Positions 9,056-26,657 of a DNA stretch of 32,129 nucleotides are shown one piece after another. Source of the DNA: a virus. The notes beneath the pieces are model-generated. The model was not told the DNA's origin. It was given only the letters and a program-made list of their open reading frames with translations, and did not search any database. Location: IMG/VR virus record IMGVR_UViG_3300042398_000302, positions 1 to 32,129 of that record. One strand, 5' to 3'. The number at the start of each line of letters is the position of its first letter. Positions within the stretch are counted from its first letter, which is position 1. The position numbers and the translations under genes are program-made.

Positions 9056-12000
9056 TTACACTGGTGCTGTTACAGTCACAGGTGCAGTTACAGGTTTACT
9101 CAACTCGTTTGGAGTGAAAGTAATTGTATACGTGCCAGCTGTGGTATAAGCATAAGTGCCAGTACCATCAGTTGTTGTTATCGAACCTTCTGGGACAGCA
9201 GGAACACCTGGCGTAATCACTGTAACGCCATCTTCTCCAAGAACTGGAGGAACTTCTGCTACAGCATCGCCAAATGTATACGTTCCACCACAAGCAATAT
9301 CAAGTGCCAATGAGACACTTAAATCTGTTGGTGTTGGAGTAATTACATATGGAATACTTGCGTGTGAGATAAACTCAACAGTTGCTTCATAGTTGTGATC
9401 GTCAGGAACATAGCGAATTGTGAATGTACCATCTCTACCGTAAGTATAAGTTCCTGTACCATCTGTGCTAACTAAAGAACCTTCTGGAACAGCTGGAACA
9501 GCAGGAACCTCTGGAACCTCAGGAGTGATAATCGTTACACCGTCTTCACCCAATACAGGAGGTTGATACGGAGTACCAGGAATCTCTGCAACAGGATCAC
9601 CAAAGTAATATACACCAGGCAATGCTGGCGAAGAAGCTAAGGTGGCTATGCGATCATCACGAGACGCAGTGATAGAGTACGTAGTGCGAGCAGGAGCGGT
9701 CACAGCTAAAGTGACAGGCTTGCTCAACTCGTTAGGCTCGAAAGTGATTGTGTAATCACCAGGACGAGGATAAGTATACTCTGCGATGCCATCAGTAGTC
9801 GTAACGACTCCCTCAGGAATTGCAGGAGCAGGTACAACATACCAATCGTTATCGCTAATCTGCTGAATGTTGCCAGTGTCAAGAACGTTCAACGCTAAAG
9901 TCGAAACAGCACCTGTAGCATCATCCGTAAAAGTCACTGTGTAAGTACCAGCAGCAGGATATGTGAACACACCAGTTGTGTCAACCGTTGCAGCAGGATC
10001 GCCGTATGAATAGGAGCCAGCAGAACGACCAGACTTAGTAGCTTTCAATTGACGAATCGATCGAGAACCTACTTTTACAACTGAACGAGAGAAAGCAGTT
10101 ACACCGTCATTAGTAAATGTGAACTTGTATGGAACAGGCTCAGGAGTTACGCCATCTGCACCTAGTGTAGCATCAGGTGTTGCGATAATGTGAGCTTTAT
10201 ACACACCAACAACCTCGGCAACTGCATCGCCCATTCTATACTGACCACCACATGTCGGAGACAGGCTTAGGGTTTTGTATAGGAAATATTCAGGAGATGA
10301 AATCACATAAGGAATACTTGTATGTGCAATAAAACTTGAAGTTGCTTCATAGTTATGATCGTCTGGTACGTAACGAATTGTATACGTGCCTTCACGAGGA
10401 TAGACATATGAACCAGTACCATCGGCAGATACAAGAGTACCCTCTGGAATAGCTGGAACAAGCGGAACAACATCAGTCAAGATTTCATCAGGACTTGTTT
10501 GTGCCACAGGATCAACATCAGGAACTATCAAAGACAGAGTCGATACAGCAGCTGTAGAGGTCTCTGTGAAAGTCACTGTATAAGTACCAGCAACAGTGTA
10601 GATCATCTGAGACGCACCGTTAGGTGTTGTACTAGTAGTTGCTTCGGCATCTCCAAAAGCATATACACCATCCACACCAGTATCAAAGATAAAAGTGAGT
10701 GGAACTGGATCGTAAGTAGGAGTAGCTGTGATATGTTTCTTGTAGGTTGCAGGAACTTCTGGTACTTCAGGTACAGAATCACCAAAGTAATATACACCAG
10801 GCAATGCTGGAGAAGAACTTAGTGTTGCTGTGCATTCATCCCGTGGAGTAGAGATTGTATATGTCGTACGTTCAATAGCACTTACAGCCAATGTGACAGG
10901 AAGACTCAACTCATTCGGGTAGAATGTGATTGTGTAATCACCAACGCGTGGGTAAGTATATGTAGCAATACCATCGGTAGTAGGAACATTACCAGCAGGA
11001 ATAGCAGGAACGACAGGAACATACGGCGTAAGCTCTTCTGCTGCACCAGTCTGAGCGACAGGAGCATCATCAACAATTAAAGATAGATTCGACACAACAC
11101 CTGTAGTGCCATCCGTAAAGGTGACAGCATAGGTGCCAGGACCAGGATAAGTGAACACAGCACCAGTGTCAACCGTTGGGACAGAGTCGCCATAGTTGTA
11201 CGAACCAGCAGGAGCATTCTCCACACTGAACGTCCACTTATACGGAACAGGCTCAGGAGTAACACCATCTGCACCAATAGTGGCGTCAGGTGTTGCAGTG
11301 ATCTTGTTCTTGTATGTCGCAGGTACTTCAGGAATCTCAGCAACAGCGTCGCCCATGTCATAATAACCACCACATGTAGGAGCAAGACTCAGAGCCTTGT
11401 ACATGAAATACTCAGGAGAGCTAATCACATATGGAACGCTTGTGTGAGCAATACATGTTGTAGTAGGATTATCATTACCGTCATCTGGAGCGTAGCGAAC
11501 TGTGTAAGTGCCTTCGCGAGGATAGAGATAAGTTCCCAAGCCATCAGTAGAAACTAATGTTCCCTCTGGAATAGCTGGAACAGCAGGAACTAGAGGTGTG
11601 ATCTCTTGGTTCGCACTCACTTGAGCAGCAGTGTCACCGTCGGCGACTATCAAACTCAAGTTGGAGACAGCTCCACCATCTGTATGCGTAAAGGATACTT
11701 CGTACGTTCCGACAGCAGGATATGTGAATGTGCCATTAGCATCAACTGTAGCAGCAGGATCGCCATACGACCACGTACCAGCAGCACCATCCTCGATAGC
11801 AAACGTCCACATATATGGAGTGCCAGGTGTGAATGTACCATCACCATTGTCTGTACGATTAGGTGTGGCTGTGATGTGTGGTTGATATGCAGCAGGAACC
11901 TCTGGAATCTCAGCAACACCATCACCGAAATAATAGGTGCCAGGCAAACCAGGAGAAGCAGTGAATGTACCAGTCATCTCGCTACGAGTGCAAGTTAGCG

Positions 12001-13144
12001 TGTAGAGAGTTGGCATAATAATGTTGACTGCGGCTGTGACAGCAGAGTTGCCATCATCAGGTGTGAAGGTGATTGTGAAGTCACCAGCACGAGGATAATT
12101 ATAAGTTGCGTTGCCAGATGCGTCACTAGTCACAGTGTGAGTAGGAACAGGTGGAACGTAAGGACTAATCTCTTCGATTGCGCCAGTCTGTGGTACAGTG
12201 TCACCGTCGGCAACAACTAAGCTCAAGTTCGAAACGACACCAGAGGTGCCATCAGTGAATGTCACTGCATAAGTGCCAGGACCGACATAAGTGAATACGC
12301 CAGTTGCATCTGTAGTTGCCTCAGCATTTCCGTATGTCCATGTACCAGCAGCACCACCTTCGATAGCGAAAGTGTACATGTATGGGACAGGTGTAGGATC
12401 TGGAGTAGCAGTAATACGATTCTTGTTTACAGCAGCTTGCTCGGCAATGCCATCACCCATGTCGTATACACCTGACATTGGAGGAGACACAGACAGATTA
12501 CACAAGTCGAAGCGAACGCTAGGACTGATAGTGTAACCTGTACGAGCGATTGCAGTGATCTCTGTAGTAGCTTCTGTCGACTCAGCATTGTCTGGATCGA
12601 AACGAACTGTGTATGTGCCAGGAACTGTATACTGATAGGTCGCTACTAAATTAGTAGTGTGAACTATACCACCAGGATAAGGAGGAACTTCAGGAACACC
12701 TGGCGTAATTTCAGTTACACCATCTTCACCCATTACAGGAGGAATTGCTGGGACACCTTCACGAGGATCGCCAAAGTAGAAAGTACCTTCATAGTTTGCA
12801 CGAGCAGACTGATCTAACAGAGTAGCAGTTGCCGTACAGTCCATGAATACCATAGATGCTGAGGCAGTGTAGTCACGACCAATTTCAAAATAGGCAATGA
12901 TTTCACCGTCGGCAGTAACGCGAGTCAGCGACCGAACAGAGTTCAAAGTTGCATCGTCACCTTGTCCGATCTTGTTCACGATGTCAGTCTCTAACTGGAC
13001 AACGCGAGCCTCGAGACTACCAATAGCTGCTGCGGCACTCTGAGCAATCCATGCGTAGCCATTCCAAATGTAAAGTGGACCACCGTCTGGTGCTTGATAC
13101 TCTTGAGCTAGCGTAGGATTAGTAGGAAAACTAAATGCGGTCAT
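9056..13144 (-). CDS. Giant PKD/Ig-like repeat virion protein (1362 residues)
   Basis: Residues 1-35 carry a module (FPTNPTLAQ, then YIWNGYAW) shared with the collar fibre upstream. A short coiled coil follows (SLEARVVQLETDIV). From about residue 110 to the end lie 13 PKD-like units. Each has a [YF][YSM]xGD-type motif (YYFGD, WSYGD, YDMGD) and a closing GTYTVTF-like strand. In the central part the order is GD, GD, GTY, GTY, showing a small unit nested within a larger one. No enzyme motif or membrane segment is seen. PKD and Ig-like domains on phage virions are thought to give weak binding to cell-surface glycans; that role is inferred. One inner unit near 10020-10090 has a basic insertion (VGSRSIRQLKATKSGRSAG). 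The ribosome site is AGAGGAGG. Confidence 0.82.
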   Translation of the reverse strand: MTAFSFPTNPTLAQEYQAPDGGPLYIWNGYAWIAQSAAAAIGSLEARVVQLETDIVNKIGQGDDATLNSVRSLTRVTADGEIIAYFEIGRDYTASASMVFMDCTATATLLDQSARANYEGTFYFGDPREGVPAIPPVMGEDGVTEITPGVPEVPPYPGGIVHTTNLVATYQYTVPGTYTVRFDPDNAESTEATTEITAIARTGYTISPSVRFDLCNLSVSPPMSGVYDMGDGIAEQAAVNKNRITATPDPTPVPYMYTFAIEGGAAGTWTYGNAEATTDATGVFTYVGPGTYAVTFTDGTSGVVSNLSLVVADGDTVPQTGAIEEISPYVPPVPTHTVTSDASGNATYNYPRAGDFTITFTPDDGNSAVTAAVNIIMPTLYTLTCTRSEMTGTFTASPGLPGTYYFGDGVAEIPEVPAAYQPHITATPNRTDNGDGTFTPGTPYMWTFAIEDGAAGTWSYGDPAATVDANGTFTYPAVGTYEVSFTHTDGGAVSNLSLIVADGDTAAQVSANQEITPLVPAVPAIPEGTLVSTDGLGTYLYPREGTYTVRYAPDDGNDNPTTTCIAHTSVPYVISSPEYFMYKALSLAPTCGGYYDMGDAVAEIPEVPATYKNKITATPDATIGADGVTPEPVPYKWTFSVENAPAGSYNYGDSVPTVDTGAVFTYPGPGTYAVTFTDGTTGVVSNLSLIVDDAPVAQTGAAEELTPYVPVVPAIPAGNVPTTDGIATYTYPRVGDYTITFYPNELSLPVTLAVSAIERTTYTISTPRDECTATLSSSPALPGVYYFGDSVPEVPEVPATYKKHITATPTYDPVPLTFIFDTGVDGVYAFGDAEATTSTTPNGASQMIYTVAGTYTVTFTETSTAAVSTLSLIVPDVDPVAQTSPDEILTDVVPLVPAIPEGTLVSADGTGSYVYPREGTYTIRYVPDDHNYEATSSFIAHTSIPYVISSPEYFLYKTLSLSPTCGGQYRMGDAVAEVVGVYKAHIIATPDATLGADGVTPEPVPYKFTFTNDGVTAFSRSVVKVGSRSIRQLKATKSGRSAGSYSYGDPAATVDTTGVFTYPAAGTYTVTFTDDATGAVSTLALNVLDTGNIQQISDNDWYVVPAPAIPEGVVTTTDGIAEYTYPRPGDYTITFEPNELSKPVTLAVTAPARTTYSITASRDDRIATLASSPALPGVYYFGDPVAEIPGTPYQPPVLGEDGVTIITPEVPEVPAVPAVPEGSLVSTDGTGTYTYGRDGTFTIRYVPDDHNYEATVEFISHASIPYVITPTPTDLSVSLALDIACGGTYTFGDAVAEVPPVLGEDGVTVITPGVPAVPEGSITTTDGTGTYAYTTAGTYTITFTPNELSKPVTAPVTVTAPV
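9066..12814 (-). repeat. Array of 8 outer and 5 nested PKD-like units
   Basis: Outer units alternate between a type introduced by YTIS...ALPGVYYFGD and a type introduced by PYVISSPEY...CGGYYDMGD. Inner units begin near HITATP, contain AGTWSYGDPAATVD and GTYTVTFTD, and end near SNLSLIVADGD. They occupy roughly 12150-12435, 11590-11880, 11000-11310, 10460-10745 and 9820-10190. The first outer unit and the last two outer units lack an insert and instead have a short PVLGEDGVT...ITPGVPAVPEG loop. Confidence 0.75.
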
Positions 13145-13186: not shown

Positions 13187-14647
13187 TTAAGCTATTTTAA
13201 CCGCGAGGCCAGTAATCGTGAGTACGTTAGAAGTAACTCCCACTGCTGGGAAATACCATTGCCTACCGAGCCAACGCCAAGTACCTGTAAGACTTGTTTC
13301 TGGAGTGCCACTTACATTTGGATTTAGCGCGGTACCAGCTCCCACCGTGTTTGAATAATCGGCTCCTGCTGGGTTTACAAATTCCTGGTTAGGACTAATT
13401 CTTCCACCGTAACCCAAAGGTATCGCAATCATCGCAATACAACCAATAGTGTCATATGTGGGAATTGGCATTCCGCTTTCGCCAGCAGGACCTTGAGGAC
13501 CAACTTCACCTTGGAGACCTTGAGGACCAGCAGGACCTGTTTCTCCTTGGGGTCCTTGTGGACCAGGGATAGTAGAGTCTGCACCTGTAGGACCAGCAGG
13601 ACCTGTTTCTCCCGGAGGACCAACTGGACCAACAGGACCTTGAGGACCATCTGTAATGTCGCCAGTTACCTTGATAATGTAAAGTAAAGAATAGTAAGGA
13701 GGTAAGTTGGCATTAGTGCCATCTACACCTGCGCTGTCAATTGTTATGCCTGTGGTTGCAGAGCTAGTTGGGAACACCAAACCAGTACTGCTGTTTAAGT
13801 CTCCACCACCGTTACCACCACCACCGTTTTGACCATAGGTTAAATGAACGTGTCCAGGATCGATAAGAGTATGATTGTGTGCAATTACACTCGCATTTGC
13901 ACTACCACCTACAGAGCCAATTGGATATGTTAATCCTGCTCCAATAACAAATTTATCGCGTAAGTCTGGACGACCTTCTGCACCATCACATGGCGCCCAA
14001 CCTAGCGGAACGCTTTCGACTGTTCCAGACCAGATTGCTATTGTGCCAATTGGAGTTCCACCAGGAGCAGGAGCACCTTGAGGACCTGGTACTGTTGAAT
14101 CTGCACCAGTGTCGCCTTTTTCACCTTGAGGACCTTGAGGACCAGTGGCACCTACAATCTTGCCAGCATTGTCCCAAACACTAGTAGTGCTGTTCCACAC
14201 ATGCGCAAAGCCAGTGTCGTCAGCAACATATACATCACCGTGAGTAGAAGACGCAGGTAGTTCAGCAGCAGTTGCCACTCTACCTACATAGCGTAAGCCA
14301 ATCCCTTGAGGACCGACCTCGCCTTGAATACCTTGTGGACCCTGTGGTCCAACGGGACCTGTGAGACCAACTGAAGAGGATGTGGAAGATACCCAAACAA
14401 GAGTACCATCTGTAGGATTTAGATACGCGATGAACAAAGCACCTGTATCGCTCTCATACCACTCTTCACCTTCAATTGTCGGAACAGGAGGTTCAACAGA
14501 GACAGAAAGAGAGGAAGCCCCTCCACCACCGCCACCTGCGGCTGGGAGAATGTCCCAACCATATCCATTAAATTTGTATAAGATTCCAGCACCAGCGTCA
14601 ACAACTTGTCCTAGCGTAGGATTTTGTGGAAATACTAAGTTTGCCAT
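13187..14647 (-). CDS. Collagen-like fibre with phage tail collar domain (486 residues)
   Basis: The N-terminus ([14 protein letters not shown], then YKFNGYGW) is a module shared with the PKD giant. Collagen-like GPQGP runs alternate with globular modules, including the [12 protein letters not shown]...HGDVYVADD module. The middle has a tail collar domain: [38 protein letters not shown], a HNHT...HVH histidine cluster and [14 protein letters not shown], as in T4 short-fibre gp12-like proteins. In such fibres the histidines can bind metal within the trimer. A second collagen run leads to a C-terminal head with [14 protein letters not shown] and [10 protein letters not shown], similar to the end of the next fibre upstream. 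It is probably a trimeric receptor-binding fibre. Confidence 0.85.
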
Positions 14648-14657
14648 GATTTATCCT

Positions 14658-15746
14658 TTAATCTGCGACCTTGATCGCCATGCCAGTAATGGAAGCTGTT
14701 GTTGATTGTGAGCTTGCGCCGTTTTCCCAAGTCCATCCATAGCTTGGTGAATGCCATGCCCATTGTCCTGTATACGAATCAATAGGGTTTCCTGTAATCC
14801 AACCAGGACCATAAGCACCTGTTCGAGCTATAGGACCTGCTGTGTTCAGAGAAATCTGCATACTTCCAGCTCCAAGAGCATACACTGTGCCAGTAGTAAC
14901 GGATCCAGCATTAGGACCGATCACCATATTGCATGGCACAACTGCTCCAATTGAATTCCAACCAACCGCAGCGCCAGCGCCAGCAGGACCTTGCGGACCG
15001 ACTTCACCTTGTGGACCTTGAGGACCTTGTGGGCCAACTGCACCATCAGCGCCAGCAGGACCTTGCGGACCTGGGACTGTTGAGTCTAAACCAGCAGGAC
15101 CTGCGGGACCTTGCGCACCGTCTAAGCCAGCAGGACCTTGAGGACCTGTTGCACCTACGATCTTACCAGCATCATCCCAAACACCTGTTGTACTATTCCA
15201 CACGTGTGCATTACCTGTATCATCAGAGATGTAAACATCACCGTGCGTTGCACCAGCAGGCAGAGCAGCGACAGTGGCTACTCGACCAACATAACGCAAG
15301 CCTATGCCTTGGGCACCAGCTTCACCTTGTGGACCTTGAGGACCTGGTACAGTTGAATCTGCACCAGTAGGACCTGCGGGACCGACTTCACCTTGAATTC
15401 CTTGCGGACCTTGCGGACCGACTTCACCTTGTGGACCACCAACAGCGTCTATCTGCGACACTGCGATCCAACACCCAACAAGAGTGTCTGGATTTACATA
15501 CCAAATATAAGAGCGACCGGAGTCGGTCTCAAACCACGTCTGACCCTCGGTAGGAGCGTCAGGAGGAGTAGGACTTGACACAACACCACTACCACCACTG
15601 TTTCCAGTGGCAGCAGTAGCTTGTATGGTACCGTCAGGAAATGCTAACGGACCGACTAATTGTGCGACATCATCAACCGCAAGTTCTCCTAGAGCCACGA
15701 CGTTTCCGTCTGCATCATATATTGCTTTTACTAATAGTGCTGTCAT
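14658..15746 (-). CDS. Collagen-like fibre with C-terminal head (362 residues)
   Basis: The N-terminus ([19 protein letters not shown] and [15 protein letters not shown]) matches the next gene upstream (15759-16781) and probably attaches the fibre. After a module with [11 protein letters not shown] and a YVNP segment come GPQGP runs split by the [12 protein letters not shown]...HGDVYISDD module. The C-terminal head (from about residue 255) begins [15 protein letters not shown], includes [15 protein letters not shown] and ends [11 protein letters not shown], resembling the end of the 13187-14647 fibre. This suggests duplication of a receptor-binding tip. A ribosome site (AAGGAG) precedes the ATG. 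Confidence 0.82.
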
Positions 15747-15758
15747 GGCTCAAACTCC

Positions 15759-16781
15759 TTAGATAAACTTGATAGGCTTTAATGTACCGTTTGTGTCATA
15801 AAATGCTAACGATTTGTTTGCAACTTCTTGAACAGCGTCTTGAACGTTTGTTGCTTTGATCGTTGTGTCAGCAGGAGTACCTACTACAGGTACAAATGAA
15901 ACATCAGCAGCAGTTACGTCTTTAATGGCGCCAGCAGTAGAGTCTTGCAACTCAATGATAGCAGCTTCCAGTTGATTCAACGAGCCTTGAACTTCAGCAG
16001 ACTTCAGAATTGGACCAACGCCATACGTACGAACTTGAACAGCAGCGTAGTCGCCATCTGTAGGAGTTACTGCACCAGAACGACCATTGAAAGCGTTTAC
16101 ATAGTTACGACCTTCGATGTTCTGAACTTGACCTTCGAGTAATCCTAATGCCATGTCGGCTTGATCCAAAGCAGCTTGAACGTCTTTGCCTTTTAGAATC
16201 TTATTACCGTTTGCATCGTAAGTGGTGCCAGCAGCAGTAGCAACGCGAGCAGAGTAAGGTAAATGAGTCCACTTAGCTGTGCCGTCGTTGTAGATCAACC
16301 AATCGCCAACTTCGACAGCCACACCAGCAGCATCACCGACAGTACGTTGACCAGCTGTATTGAAAATGTAGTAAGGAACAACTGCGCCACCAGCAGCAGG
16401 CTTTGCAGGATCTGCGGAATTGAAGCCTAATGTGCCAGAGAACTTAGTAGCACCTTGGATATTAGAAACTTGATTACCGATTGCAGCGAACGCGTCTTGA
16501 ACGTTAGAGGCACCAGCAACTAGCGGTGACAATACAACTTGGCTACCTGTGTAGTCGCCAGTTTGTGGTAGAACATTGCCTTTACGACCTGCGAAGCCAG
16601 TGACATTCTCTGAAGGAACGTATGCAGTAGTTTGTTGAGTTTTGTCTTGGAACTCTAAGGGACCAGGAACGATTGCGATATCGCCTTGGACGAGTTCGCC
16701 TAATCCAACGACTTTACCTTCTACGTCGCGGATTGGTTTGATTAGAATTGCTGATACTGTATTTTTTGGGGCGATTGCCAT
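15759..16781 (-). CDS. Tail fibre-like protein without collagen repeats (340 residues)
   Basis: The N-terminal segment (ILIKPIRDVEGKVVGLGEL and GPLEFQDKTQQTTA) is homologous to that of the 14658-15746 fibre. The body has repeats of the kind seen in phage fibre shafts: FAGRKGNVLPQTGDYTGSQV and FNGRSGAVTPTDGDYAAVQV, with ASNVQDAFAAIGNQV, KGKDVQAALDQADMAL and ATNVQDAVQEVAN. A central module contains VGDWLIYNDGTAKWTHLPYS. The last residues (LAFYDTNGTLKPIKFI) resemble the end of the next upstream gene. There is no enzymatic motif. Its role as an adaptor or shaft piece in the fibre complex is inferred from context. Confidence 0.75.
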   Translation of the reverse strand: MAIAPKNTVSAILIKPIRDVEGKVVGLGELVQGDIAIVPGPLEFQDKTQQTTAYVPSENVTGFAGRKGNVLPQTGDYTGSQVVLSPLVAGASNVQDAFAAIGNQVSNIQGATKFSGTLGFNSADPAKPAAGGAVVPYYIFNTAGQRTVGDAAGVAVEVGDWLIYNDGTAKWTHLPYSARVATAAGTTYDANGNKILKGKDVQAALDQADMALGLLEGQVQNIEGRNYVNAFNGRSGAVTPTDGDYAAVQVRTYGVGPILKSAEVQGSLNQLEAAIIELQDSTAGAIKDVTAADVSFVPVVGTPADTTIKATNVQDAVQEVANKSLAFYDTNGTLKPIKFI

Positions 16782-23118: not shown

Positions 23119-23697
23119 TTATACTGTTGGTGCTGGCTCTTCAGGTGTTGGCTCTGGAGTTGGCTCTGGAGTTGGCTCTACAACAGCAGCAGGAGCAACT
23201 ACAGTAATTGAAGTAGTGGCATTCTTGTTACCGTCGGCTGGAACAAATGTTACAGTGTAGGTGCCAGCAGCAGCGAATGTGTGACCCATCTGACCATCAG
23301 CAGCATTGGCTACTGGTTTGCCATCGCCAAAGTTGTATGTACCAGCTTTGCCTGTCGGTGTAGCGTCGAAATGATATTTCATCTGATCTACTTCATCAAC
23401 ACGAGATGCGATAGTGTAGGTGATGGTCGTTGGTGCTGTAAAGCCACCGTCTACACCAGCAGGTGTGCGAACACCAACCGTTGCCACTGAGAAATCTGCA
23501 GAGCTCGGAGCTGTTACAGGTGCTGCTGTGTTGTCTGGTGTAGGTGCTATTGCGAAATTGGTGCCTACCAGATCTAGACCATTCTTAGCTGCGACAAAAG
23601 TTTTAGCTTGGGTGGCACTTAGACCAATAATATTACCTGCATGCCATACGTTACCTTTTTTATCGGTAACTGGCTTTAGTGTTAAAATTGCTTTCAT
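23119..23697 (-). CDS. PKD-domain protein next to portal (192 residues)
   Basis: The N-terminal part (MKAILTLKPVTDKKGNVWHAG and LSATQAKTFVAAKNGLDLV) looks like a small virion-attachment module. Residues about 85-170 form a PKD-like unit introduced by TYTIASRVDEVDQ, with GTYNFGDGKP, then MGHTFAAAGTYTVTFVPADG. The FGDG, H-T-F and G-x-Y-x-V landmarks are closer to classical PKD than the repeats in the 1362-residue protein, but the introduction and ending match its outer units. The C-terminus is a Pro/Glu/Thr linker (EPTPEPTPEPTPEEPAP). Its start follows the stop of the small gene as TAAATG. It may be a head or neck decoration; that is inference. Confidence 0.72.
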   Translation of the reverse strand: MKAILTLKPVTDKKGNVWHAGNIIGLSATQAKTFVAAKNGLDLVGTNFAIAPTPDNTAAPVTAPSSADFSVATVGVRTPAGVDGGFTAPTTITYTIASRVDEVDQMKYHFDATPTGKAGTYNFGDGKPVANAADGQMGHTFAAAGTYTVTFVPADGNKNATTSITVVAPAAVVEPTPEPTPEPTPEEPAPTV

Positions 23698-23865
23698 TTA
23701 TTCTTCTCCTTGATTGGAATTGGTTTCTTCATCTTCGTCTGCGTAAACTCCGCATCCAGATGAGACGATAGCGAGAGCTAAAGCTGGTGGAACAGTATAG
23801 AACTCATCAGCTAGAAACTTTTGATTTTGTAATGTAACGGACTTGCCGAGATAAACTTCACGCAT
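23698..23865 (-). CDS. Small protein of unknown function between nrdB and the PKD gene
   Basis: I prefer the ATG at 23865-23863, giving 55 residues (MREVYLGKSVTLQNQKFLAD and onward). It overlaps the nrdB stop by 8 bases and has GGGGAG upstream. A longer version starting at 23943 (81 residues) would run 86 bases into nrdB. The middle is hydrophobic (PPALALAIVSSGCGVYA), and the end is very acidic (DEDEETNSNQGEE). No family is recognised. Tight linkage on both sides suggests it is expressed with the portal-proximal genes. Confidence 0.6.
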   Translation of the reverse strand: MREVYLGKSVTLQNQKFLADEFYTVPPALALAIVSSGCGVYADEDEETNSNQGEE

Positions 23866-24856
23866 GTTGTGGAACAGCTCCCCAAACATCGCTCCAAGAA
23901 CCTGACAAGGCTCCTTTAGCATAGTCTGTAACTCGACCTTCAAAGAAGTTTCCGTGTACAGGTGCGTTGATCATCTCTTCTACCCATGGTAATGGATTCT
24001 TCTTGCGTTTGAAGATGCCCTTCAGTCCTAGAGAAATCAAGCGTCTGTCCGCAATGTAGCGAATATATTCTTTGACTTCTGCGGCTTTGAGATTCCTCAT
24101 ATCCATACCGTTGAATGATAAATCAATAAACTTATCCTCTAGTTCTACCATCTTCTCAGCGATAGAATAGATTTTAGATTTCAGCTCATCGTTCCAAATC
24201 TCAGGATTTTCTTTAATGTATTCTTTGAATAGTTTCATCATGTTCTCAGTGTGCATTGTCTCATCGACAATAGACCAAGTAATGATCTGTCCCATTCCCT
24301 TCATGAGTCCGTTGCGTGGAAAATTCAGCAACATGATAAATGAAGAGAACAACTGCATACCCTCAGTGAAAGCTGAGAATACAGCAATGTGCTCTGCATG
24401 TGATGCGACAGTACCATTCTTAGAGGAAATCTCGAGAACGTAATCGTGCTTGTCCTTCATCTCCTGATACTCTAGGAATTGATTGTAGGTGCTCTCAGGT
24501 AATCCGAGAGTTTCAATCAAATGAGAGTATGCGGCAATGTGTAGTGCTTCCCTAGCAGAGAACCCGAGCAACATCATTCGGACTTCTGGTTGTGGGAAGT
24601 ATGGAAGATAATTCTTCACATATGCACCAGCGACATCAATGTCACCCTGTGTGAAGAACCTGAAGATGTTCGTGAGGAACTGCTTCTCTTCTTTACTTAG
24701 TTTCTTCTTCCAGTCTTGCACGTCTTCTGCCATAGGGACTTCAGAGTGAAGCCAATGAGCTTGTTCGTGTTTCAACCAAGCGTCATAAGCCCATGGGAAT
24801 GAGAAAGGTTTAAAATATTGTCGCTCATCGGTTAATTTGAGATGGGGTTGTTTCAT
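23858..24856 (-). CDS. nrdB: Ribonucleotide reductase class I, small (radical) subunit
   Basis: NrdB carries the di-iron centre and tyrosyl radical that NrdA uses to make deoxyribonucleotides. Starting at the ATG at 24856 (332 residues), likely metal ligands are an Asp in QGDIDVAG (72 or 74), Glu103 and His106 in AREALHIAAY, Glu165 in AFTEGMQ, and Glu199 and His202 in VDETMHTE. Tyr110 stands where the radical tyrosine is expected. A longer GTG start four codons upstream is possible, but the ATG has GAAGG at good distance and lies one base after the nrdA stop. The subunit would supply dNTPs for phage replication. Placement inside the structural operon is unusual. Confidence 0.92.
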   Translation of the reverse strand: MKQPHLKLTDERQYFKPFSFPWAYDAWLKHEQAHWLHSEVPMAEDVQDWKKKLSKEEKQFLTNIFRFFTQGDIDVAGAYVKNYLPYFPQPEVRMMLLGFSAREALHIAAYSHLIETLGLPESTYNQFLEYQEMKDKHDYVLEISSKNGTVASHAEHIAVFSAFTEGMQLFSSFIMLLNFPRNGLMKGMGQIITWSIVDETMHTENMMKLFKEYIKENPEIWNDELKSKIYSIAEKMVELEDKFIDLSFNGMDMRNLKAAEVKEYIRYIADRRLISLGLKGIFKRKKNPLPWVEEMINAPVHGNFFEGRVTDYAKGALSGSWSDVWGAVPQHA

Positions 24857-24857
24857 G

Positions 24858-26657
24858 TTATCCTTCACAAGCTAGACATGTGTTTTCGTTATTAGTTAAT
24901 TCAGAAAGATCGATCTCTTTGATGATCTCTCGTTCAATACGTTTGGCTACTTTATCTGCCTTTGCAATCTTATCAGAACGACAGTAGTACATGGTCTTCA
25001 ATCCTGCTTTCCATGCTTGGAAGTGGACTGCGTGAATGTACTTTATGTGGGAGTCTGGTCTGAAGAACACATTGAGAGACTGGGCTTGGTCGATCCATTG
25101 TTGACGATCTGCAGCATGCTGAACCACCCAACGTTGGTCAATCTCCATTGATGTTTTATACACATCGCGGTCCCACTCTGACATCCAATCAAGATGCTGC
25201 ACAGAACCATCATTAGCAATAATACTCGACCATACTTCATCGGTCCAACCTTCCTTGTGATTCTTCGACTCTTCATCTATGACTTTTGATAGCCAACGAT
25301 TACGAGTGAAGTGTGAACCAGAGAGGGTGTCTTGCCGATATGCGTTAGCACGGTAGGGTTCGATTGATGGGGACGTATTGCCCATTAGAATCGAAGATGA
25401 TGCGTTAGGTGCAATAGCCATGAGATGACTGAAGCGTTGCCCTGTGCCTTTAGCATCTGGAGCTTCGCCACGTTCTTTGCCAAGTTCTAAGTTGGCTTTA
25501 TCTAAATTTGTTCTAATGTGTTCAAATATTTTCTTGTTGCGACCAATGGCTAATGGTGATTCCCAAGGAATGTTATTCTTCTGTAGGAAGGCATGCCAAC
25601 CTAAAGCACCAATACCGATAGAACGCTCGCGCATTGCAGAGAACTTAGCACGCTTGATAGTATCAGGAGCATTCTTGATGAAGTACTCTAGAACGTTATC
25701 TAGCATCTCTGCCACATCTCGTAGGAACAGTGGATCGTTCTTCCAAGAATCAAAGTATTCTAAGTTCAAAGAGGACAAGCAGCAAACTGCTGTGCGTTGT
25801 TCGTTCGTAGGTAGAATGATCTCTGAGCATAGATTAGACTGATGAACTTTTAGTCCCAAATCCTTCAAGTGTTGAGGGAGTTTGCGATTAGATTCGTCAA
25901 TGAAGTGAATGTATGGTTCGCCTGTGGTCATACGCAACTCTAACAATTTCTGCCAGAGTTCTTTAGCGGACACTGTGTCCATCACAGCTTTAGTGTGAGG
26001 GTCGACAAGGTTCCAAGAATCATCAAAGTTTCTGTCTAACATAGACTTCTCAATGATCTCCATGAATGCGTCTGGAATATTCACACCGTGGTGTAGATTC
26101 AAGGCACGAAGATTCTGATCTCCAGTAGGCTTGCGCATCTCTAGGAAGCTCAGAATATCTGGATGATCAATAGACAAGTATGCGGCATAAGAGCCTCTAC
26201 GAGTACGACCTTGACGATACGCTAGTGAGGATGCGTCATAAGTTTTCAGGTGTGACATGACTCCTGTGGATTTCTCACCAGAGGATCTAATACCGAAGCC
26301 AATACCCACACCACCTCCGAGCATGCTGAGCCAGTTCGTCTCAGACAAATTCTCTACCAATCCCTCAGCAGTGTCCTCAATGTAATTGAGAAAGCAGGAG
26401 ATGGGCATGCCATTCTTGCTGCGACCGAAGGATAAAATAGGAGTGGAATAGGATAGCCAATGTTTACTACTATATTCATATAAACGCTGTGCGTGCTCTG
26501 GGTTACTACTGAAAGTCTTGGACACGAACGCGAACCTCTCTTGAGGACTTTTCTCTTGTTCTGTCATGTAACTTTCTCTGAGACGAATCTTACCTAGCTC
26601 GTCAAACAAGCTGTCTCTAGAATAATCTACGAGGATATCGTGGACTGTGGGGGTCAT
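24858..26657 (-). CDS. nrdA: Ribonucleotide reductase class I, large (catalytic) subunit
   Basis: This 599-residue protein reduces ribonucleotides to deoxyribonucleotides together with NrdB. Active-site residues seen are Cys88 in MPISCFLN, Asn275/Cys277/Glu279 in NLCSEI, a cysteine at 292 or 293 in VCCLSSLN, the radical-transfer pair Tyr557/Tyr558 in TMYYCRSDK, and the C-terminal CLAC pair (594, 597) that passes electrons from thioredoxin or glutaredoxin. Only about 87 residues precede the first catalytic Cys, leaving no room for the ATP-cone of E. coli NrdA, so dATP shut-off is probably absent. The ribosome site is AGGAG. No intein is seen. A hairpin separates it from the capsid gene. Confidence 0.94.
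   Translation of the reverse strand: MTPTVHDILVDYSRDSLFDELGKIRLRESYMTEQEKSPQERFAFVSKTFSSNPEHAQRLYEYSSKHWLSYSTPILSFGRSKNGMPISCFLNYIEDTAEGLVENLSETNWLSMLGGGVGIGFGIRSSGEKSTGVMSHLKTYDASSLAYRQGRTRRGSYAAYLSIDHPDILSFLEMRKPTGDQNLRALNLHHGVNIPDAFMEIIEKSMLDRNFDDSWNLVDPHTKAVMDTVSAKELWQKLLELRMTTGEPYIHFIDESNRKLPQHLKDLGLKVHQSNLCSEIILPTNEQRTAVCCLSSLNLEYFDSWKNDPLFLRDVAEMLDNVLEYFIKNAPDTIKRAKFSAMRERSIGIGALGWHAFLQKNNIPWESPLAIGRNKKIFEHIRTNLDKANLELGKERGEAPDAKGTGQRFSHLMAIAPNASSSILMGNTSPSIEPYRANAYRQDTLSGSHFTRNRWLSKVIDEESKNHKEGWTDEVWSSIIANDGSVQHLDWMSEWDRDVYKTSMEIDQRWVVQHAADRQQWIDQAQSLNVFFRPDSHIKYIHAVHFQAWKAGLKTMYYCRSDKIAKADKVAKRIEREIIKEIDLSELTNNENTCLACEG

Follow-up and report, generated by a model that had tools for sequence, protein, structure and literature searches.

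PKD-like domains probably nested within PKD-like domains in the repeat array of a putative phage fibre protein

How should a repeat protein be read when the motifs that open and close its domains do not alternate along the chain but come in the order open, open, close, close? The question is raised by a single open reading frame (ORF) at positions 9056-13144, minus strand, of the virus record IMGVR_UViG_3300042398_000302, whose whole analysed stretch of 32,129 nucleotides (a 32 kb record with its structural genes on the minus strand) is called the window here. The encoded protein of 1362 residues (hereafter, the array protein) matches PKD families of Pfam when searched whole (PF00801, E 1.1e-14, 54.6 bits with a cut-off of 23.5; PF18911, 27.2 bits with a cut-off of 27) and is laid out as an anchor motif (residues 1-34), a possible coiled coil (residues 42-60), and eight outer units that take up the rest of the chain from about residue 91. 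An initial annotation had counted 13 GD-type and 13 GTYT-type motifs, described the first and the last two outer units as having a short loop, and proposed that the other five hold a complete compact PKD-like unit in that loop. Our motif scan returned the same counts and the order GD GT, then GD GD GT GT five times, then GD GT twice (i.e., units 1, 7, and 8 with a short loop and units 2-6 nested), with the inner unit placed in the loop that leads from the GD turn of the outer unit to its GTYT hairpin. Among random orders of 13 and 13 symbols, 0.04% are balanced with a depth of at most two, a figure meant as illustration only, the homology evidence below being far stronger. The motif order alone also fits tandem or strand-swapped sandwiches, in which neighbouring domains would exchange strands, an explanation that we consider very improbable on the evidence that follows. 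We instead hold with high confidence that in units 2-6 one complete PKD-like sandwich is inserted in one loop of another, because profile matches are split, the predicted structure superposes in split fashion on one PKD domain, the inner unit is predicted to fold alone, and inner units are naturally present or absent at orthologous sites.

The profile evidence rests on two hidden Markov models (HMMs), an outer HMM built only from natural short-loop outer units (1, 7, and 8 of the window plus their counterparts in homologues) and an inner HMM built from the inner units themselves plus their homologues. Run on the full protein, the outer HMM gave one full match each for units 1 (12536..12874), 7 (9350..9679), and 8 (9059..9349; all features of this gene lie on the minus strand). 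For the split units 2 (12005..12535), 3 (11432..12004), 4 (10862..11431), 5 (10310..10861), and 6 (9680..10309), it gave at least two partial matches each, the N-terminal one starting at HMM position 1, ahead of or running into the inner unit, and the C-terminal one extending to position 97 after the inner unit. The gaps are exactly filled by five full-length matches of the inner HMM, each at E 2e-27 or better: residues 242-311 in outer 2 (12212..12421, E 2e-32), 422-500 in outer 3 (11645..11881, E 8e-37), 613-691 in outer 4 (11072..11308, E 6e-36), 803-874 in outer 5 (10523..10738, E 2e-27), and 984-1087 in outer 6 (9884..10195, E 2e-35). The two profiles are themselves related (HHalign probability 97%), and it is because of this relatedness that N-terminal outer matches in some cases extend into the inner GTYT strand, as a homologous guest (inner) and host (outer) domain would give. 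The flanks of the insertion are less uniform than initially described, however. Units 3 and 4 have the entry flank AEIPEVPA to the letter, unit 5 has a near-identical one (PEVPEVPA), and units 2 (AEQAAVNK) and 6 (AEVVGVYK) have different ones, while the exit reads VPAIPEG or VPAIPAG in units 3-5, APAIPEG in unit 6, and is missing from unit 2. The guest itself can be delimited from ITATP to a Q-T-S/G linker, a boundary map that may serve the expression of single guests.

Predicted structure gave a similar picture. An AlphaFold2 model of outer units 3 and 4 together (386 residues, 11 alignment rows) reached a mean predicted local distance difference test (pLDDT) of 83 and a predicted template modelling score (pTM) of 0.46. 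Structural alignments were made with VIA-align, whose output consists of the first and last aligned residues only. Model residues 194-386 (outer 4, a span of 193 residues) aligned to the PKD domain of the archaeal surface-layer protein 1l0q (304-387, 84 residues) over 74 residues at 2.3 Å with Z 8.6, model residues 198-386 to 7kv7 over 70 residues at 2.3 Å, and model residues 1-193 to 2c26 over 75 residues at 2.2 Å (outer 3 occupying model residues 6-196). That is, spans of about 190 residues aligned to single sandwiches of 78-89 residues at 2.2-2.3 Å, and since such a span fits one sandwich over only about 70-75 residues, more than 100 residues must be skipped. Outer 4 minus its guest and linker amounts to about 71 residues, matching the 70-74 aligned, and from this residue count the middle strands of the sandwich would be those of the outer unit. 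An exchange of middle strands is formally compatible with end-point alignments of this kind, but the inner unit has a full strand set of its own: modelled alone, that of outer 4 was predicted as a full sandwich (pLDDT 86, pTM 0.68) of six strands (3-11, 18-29, 37-40, 51-53, 59-66, and 72-78), with boundaries nearly equal to those in the two-unit model. Its best structural match was SGBP-B, a surface glycan-binding protein of Bacteroides (7kv7, Z 6.6, 2.0 Å, 61 residues). With the two-unit model as a whole, a Foldseek search of the PDB found nothing at E <= 0.001, which is to be expected for several domains whose mutual orientation is uncertain, and the inner unit against viral models gave weak matches only, several of them to BIG2, decoration, and major tail proteins.

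The comparison with related phages also speaks for insertion. Homologues of the array protein were found in IMG/VR, namely an identical one (L001), one sharing 95% identity (L004), two partial ones (L003 and L005), and a more distant one, L002, whose array protein of 1805 residues has 10 outer units, seven of them nested (vs. five of eight in the window). Based on outer-core identities, units 1-8 of the window correspond to units 1, 2, and 5-10 of L002, which thus has one additional two-unit block. The L002 orthologue of window unit 2 (core 74% identical) holds no guest and reads GVYDMGDGNTVTSDGSGNAVHSYTAGGDYTITF; at the junction, GDG^TVTSD, the TVTSD follows almost directly after the GD turn, a place at which the window has 104 residues. 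The reverse is seen at window unit 7, whose loop is short, while its counterpart, L002 unit 9 (core 73% identical), holds a very divergent guest. Judging from these sequences, host units stay intact with or without a guest, and filled and empty sites run in both directions between the two phages; each change may be a gain or a loss of the guest. Strand exchange between neighbours is difficult to reconcile with an orthologous outer unit that is complete by itself when no guest is there.

Guests were also found outside the array family, in proteins recovered by profile search. One, in L019, is a collagen-like fibre protein ending in three outer units, the first of which has a guest. Another (L015:145-1878, plus strand) is a 578-residue protein resembling major tail proteins that aligns to the uninterrupted major tail protein MW202657 (Manatee Spring) at residues 1-138 and 336-523, so that residues 139-335 fall between residues 144 and 149 of MW202657. 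This insert consists of two tandem guest units in one loop (inner HMM E 4e-19 and 8e-16), and the same HMM found no guest unit in MW202657, used as a control. Here there is no outer unit to exchange strands with, which argues further against strand swapping. The guests of the 20 nested units, the two of L015, and that of L019 are all accompanied by an exit linker of the form Q[TVIS][SG], which no short-loop unit has (counts read from the sequence strings, a stricter regular expression having missed some). It is tempting to hypothesize, although we do so tentatively and at somewhat less than even probability, that guest plus exit linker form a transferable plug-in that phages add to, duplicate in, and remove from the surface loops of various virion proteins, the hosts being outer PKD units, a tail-tube protein, and the end of a collagen-like fibre. 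If true, the particle's decoration could change without disturbing the host fold.

Several points weigh against the nested PKD-like reading and should be set beside this evidence. Tested singly, units match Pfam PKD mostly below the curated cut-off: inner units scored 16-20 bits (5 of 15 matching at E <= 0.01) and split outers remained under the cut-off, the guest-free outer unit 2 of L002 being just above it (PKD_4, 27.3 bits, cut-off 27). The initial annotation had suggested profile searches with an inner unit alone and with an outer unit freed of its inner unit. The inner profile does find PKD domains among PDB sequences, with all matches up to E 0.1 being collagenase, protease, or other PKD domains and 1l0q, and the short-loop outer profile gave weak matches only (collagenase PKD among them, E 0.3-0.4). 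Omitting the guest from the query of outer 3 or 4 had a small effect, with scores still under the Pfam cut-off; because this failed to restore a full match, we relied on the natural guest-free units. In addition, the fold evidence consists of predicted models; the five models of units 3 and 4 ranged from pLDDT 60 to 83 and were built from 11 related rows; the pTM of 0.46 makes relative domain orientations, and with them the shape of the array, unreliable; and common sandwich folds also give Z scores of 6-9. The structure prediction that had likewise been proposed nonetheless came out on the side of insertion, outer 4 fitting one PKD domain and its inner unit forming a full sandwich, and with split profiles and empty or filled orthologous sites we favor a domain within a domain over tandem or swapped sandwiches.

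The alternation of two outer subtypes, also part of the initial annotation, was borne out. Outer cores 3, 5, and 7 are 55-73% identical mutually and cores 4 and 6 81%, with 30-38% identity between the two sets; units 2 and 8 belong more loosely to the 4/6 type (45-56% to 4 and 6). The tree of outer cores, together with the identities, places the two subtypes alternately along the chain, although some forks are weakly supported. Given this alternation, the array was most probably extended two units at a time, together with their guests. Between the window and its 95% identical homologue, the ratio of nonsynonymous to synonymous substitution rates (dN/dS) was 0.11 for the whole gene (0.09 in guests, 0.09 in hosts, and 0.16 in linkers), indicating purifying selection on the gene. 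No relative of the array was found in INPHARED phage genomes at the DNA or protein level, none was confirmed in bacterial and archaeal genomes with a nested-unit profile, and PHROGs held no match for the array protein.

Where the array protein sits is suggested by its N-terminus and its neighbours. The anchor motif FPTNPTLAQ...YIWNGYAW (residues 1-34, 13043..13144) also starts the product of the neighbouring gene (13187-14647) and is found in other phages on a tailspike-like protein of 803 residues (L033) and on a fibre with, by eye, a chaperone-like C-terminal motif (L031). It is followed by the possible short coiled coil LEARVVQLETDIVNKI (12965..13021), suggested by a heptad-like pattern. 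The L002 array protein begins with a different anchor, MAILLKPIYD..GKVVALGEL, as does window 14658-15746, and the array has therefore been joined to different anchors; this second anchor type (...F.DGT.Q.TA) is common to 14658-15746 and 15759-16781 of the window (both minus strand) and the L002 N-terminus. The gene set of the window includes an HK97-type major head protein and protease, ribonucleotide reductase, a small PKD protein, portal, a collagen-like fibre cluster holding the array, head-tail adaptor, attachment protein, tail terminator, major tail protein, tape measure, and minor tail genes, with collagen-like tail fibre genes flanking the array gene on both sides and tail genes downstream. 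Because the N-terminal anchor is common to other fibres and the gene context is structural, we infer that the array protein is a virion fibre, probably an adhesin, and regard nested PKD-like domains on a phage virion fibre as likely, with less confidence than the nesting alone. Less favourable to this reading is that the fibre cluster lies between portal and head-tail connector genes, and a head, neck, or tail position would each be possible. The same position, in the head/neck part of the cluster, would suit a surface structure for binding to the environment (mucus, particles, extracellular sugars) instead of attaching to the host, a role proposed for T4 Hoc, a head fibre with PKD domains that is linked to adhesion; Hoc and Sf14 gp20, both PKD/Ig-like head fibres, have been proposed to bind the environment or host cells (PMC11821841, PMC13370021). 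We think this somewhat doubtful, given that the anchor is the one of tailspike-like and chaperone-ended fibres and that the neighbours are collagen-like tail fibres.

What the guests might do can be outlined on the assumption of a virion fibre. The N-terminal anchor would fix the protein to the particle and the string of outer PKD-like sandwiches would form a stalk; in five of the eight units a guest (a second PKD-like sandwich plus exit linker) takes the place of the loop after the GD turn, and the guests would stick out sideways from the stalk as knobs, giving the branched, knobbed surface shape that the initial annotation envisaged. Together with a basic loop of guest 6, they might then bind sugars or other surface ligands through many weak contacts along the fibre. 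Both sideways projection and binding are suggested by analogy, with the split Ig-like domains of RTX adhesins and with phage PKD proteins such as Hoc, and for a ligand-binding role we regard the chances as even. A serious rival, which we nevertheless consider rather unlikely, accepts the nesting but sees the guests as mechanical, thickening, spacing, or stiffening the fibre or pairing across neighbouring chains, with no ligand. Consistent with this, dN/dS is 0.09 in guests and hosts alike, the guests are acidic (net charge -4 to -7) except guest 6 and show no evident binding site, and the inserted sandwich of the YSD1 tail protein makes an extra subunit contact (PMC8718954). On the other hand, guest number and position vary between related phages (five of eight vs. 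seven of ten), which better suits a variable decoration than a mechanical part. The exceptional Arg/Lys-rich loop of inner 6 (about residues 1012-1042, 10019..10111) reads SRSVVKVGSRSIRQLKATKSGRSAG within an otherwise acidic protein. It is present in L002 and L005, its charge conserved and its length and sequence variable; because it is kept in two such divergent homologues, it is a real loop rather than an out-of-frame translation.

The elements of this architecture are already known: PKD arrays, PKD domains on phages, split Ig-like scaffolds, and inserted sandwiches in tail proteins. With PKD domains (PF00801; collagenase ColG/ColH; archaeal 1l0q) both unit types share the FGD turn, the GTYTV hairpin, and profile and structure matches, but ColH, the best sequence match in the PDB, has two PKD domains head to tail, and no nested PKD was found in PDB or literature searches. 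In RTX adhesins (V. cholerae FrhA, MpIBP), single split Ig-like domains project ligand-binding domains (PMC10865825); as in the array protein, a stalk sandwich is interrupted by a complete inserted domain, the split domain serving as a scaffold that projects its guest off axis. The guests there are ligand-binding domains of another kind (PA14, sugar- or peptide-binding), whereas here guest and host have one fold in common (PKD in PKD), the nesting recurs five to seven times per chain, the protein comes from a phage, and the gene lies in a phage structural cluster rather than encoding a secreted bacterial adhesin; the Pfam scan gave no RTX match for the array protein, whose gene ends after outer unit 8 without a C-terminal RTX beta-roll. 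T4 Hoc and Shigella phage Sf14 gp20 (PMC11821841) are likewise phage surface proteins with PKD/Ig-like domains on a virion anchor, but Hoc-type fibres have one to three simple domains, with no split hosts or two-subtype alternation described. Finally, phage structural proteins do gain sandwich domains, as in YSD1 'domain2' and the terminal Ig-like domains of lambda gpV and T5 pb6 (PMC8718954). In YSD1 the extra sandwich lies inside the tail-protein fold, with a tail-tube fold as host and one inserted domain; the L015 protein belongs here, too, with two guests of the array-protein family. The arrangement, which the initial annotation did not know from elsewhere, has precedents in the split Ig-like domains of RTX adhesins and the inserted sandwich of YSD1. 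A literature search on the nesting of PKD or Ig-like domains in phages returned nothing, which is weak evidence of absence, and the combination seen here (repeated PKD in PKD, filled and empty sites, a guest common to a tail-tube protein) was not found in the searched papers, the PDB, or phage genomes. Domain-in-domain scaffolds mostly occur singly, and an array of them is unusual. This family combines sites with and without a guest, arrays of five to seven nested units, and a guest that recurs in an otherwise unrelated host fold, and so provides a natural test set for how a complete domain can enter a beta-sandwich loop without breakage and for phage surface variation; the array looks like a modular way of hanging extra binding knobs on a virus.

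A few further observations concern the termini of the arrays and the wider gene cluster. The last ~100 residues of the L002 array protein (L002:5938-11352) are nearly identical to the C-terminus of the collagen-like fibre of L019 (L019:3970-6297), a likeness that points to the exchange of a C-terminal cap between phages. The ORF of L003 (1-2829, plus strand) continues past the array into a glycine-rich domain, which is absent from the window protein. Between the portal and ribonucleotide reductase genes, the window also encodes a protein of 192 residues (23119-23697, minus strand) that combines one PKD domain (E 8e-7) with a PTPEPTPE tail, possibly a decoration protein, and the genes for the small and large subunits of ribonucleotide reductase (23858-26657, minus strand) lie inside the head cluster, between major head protein and portal.

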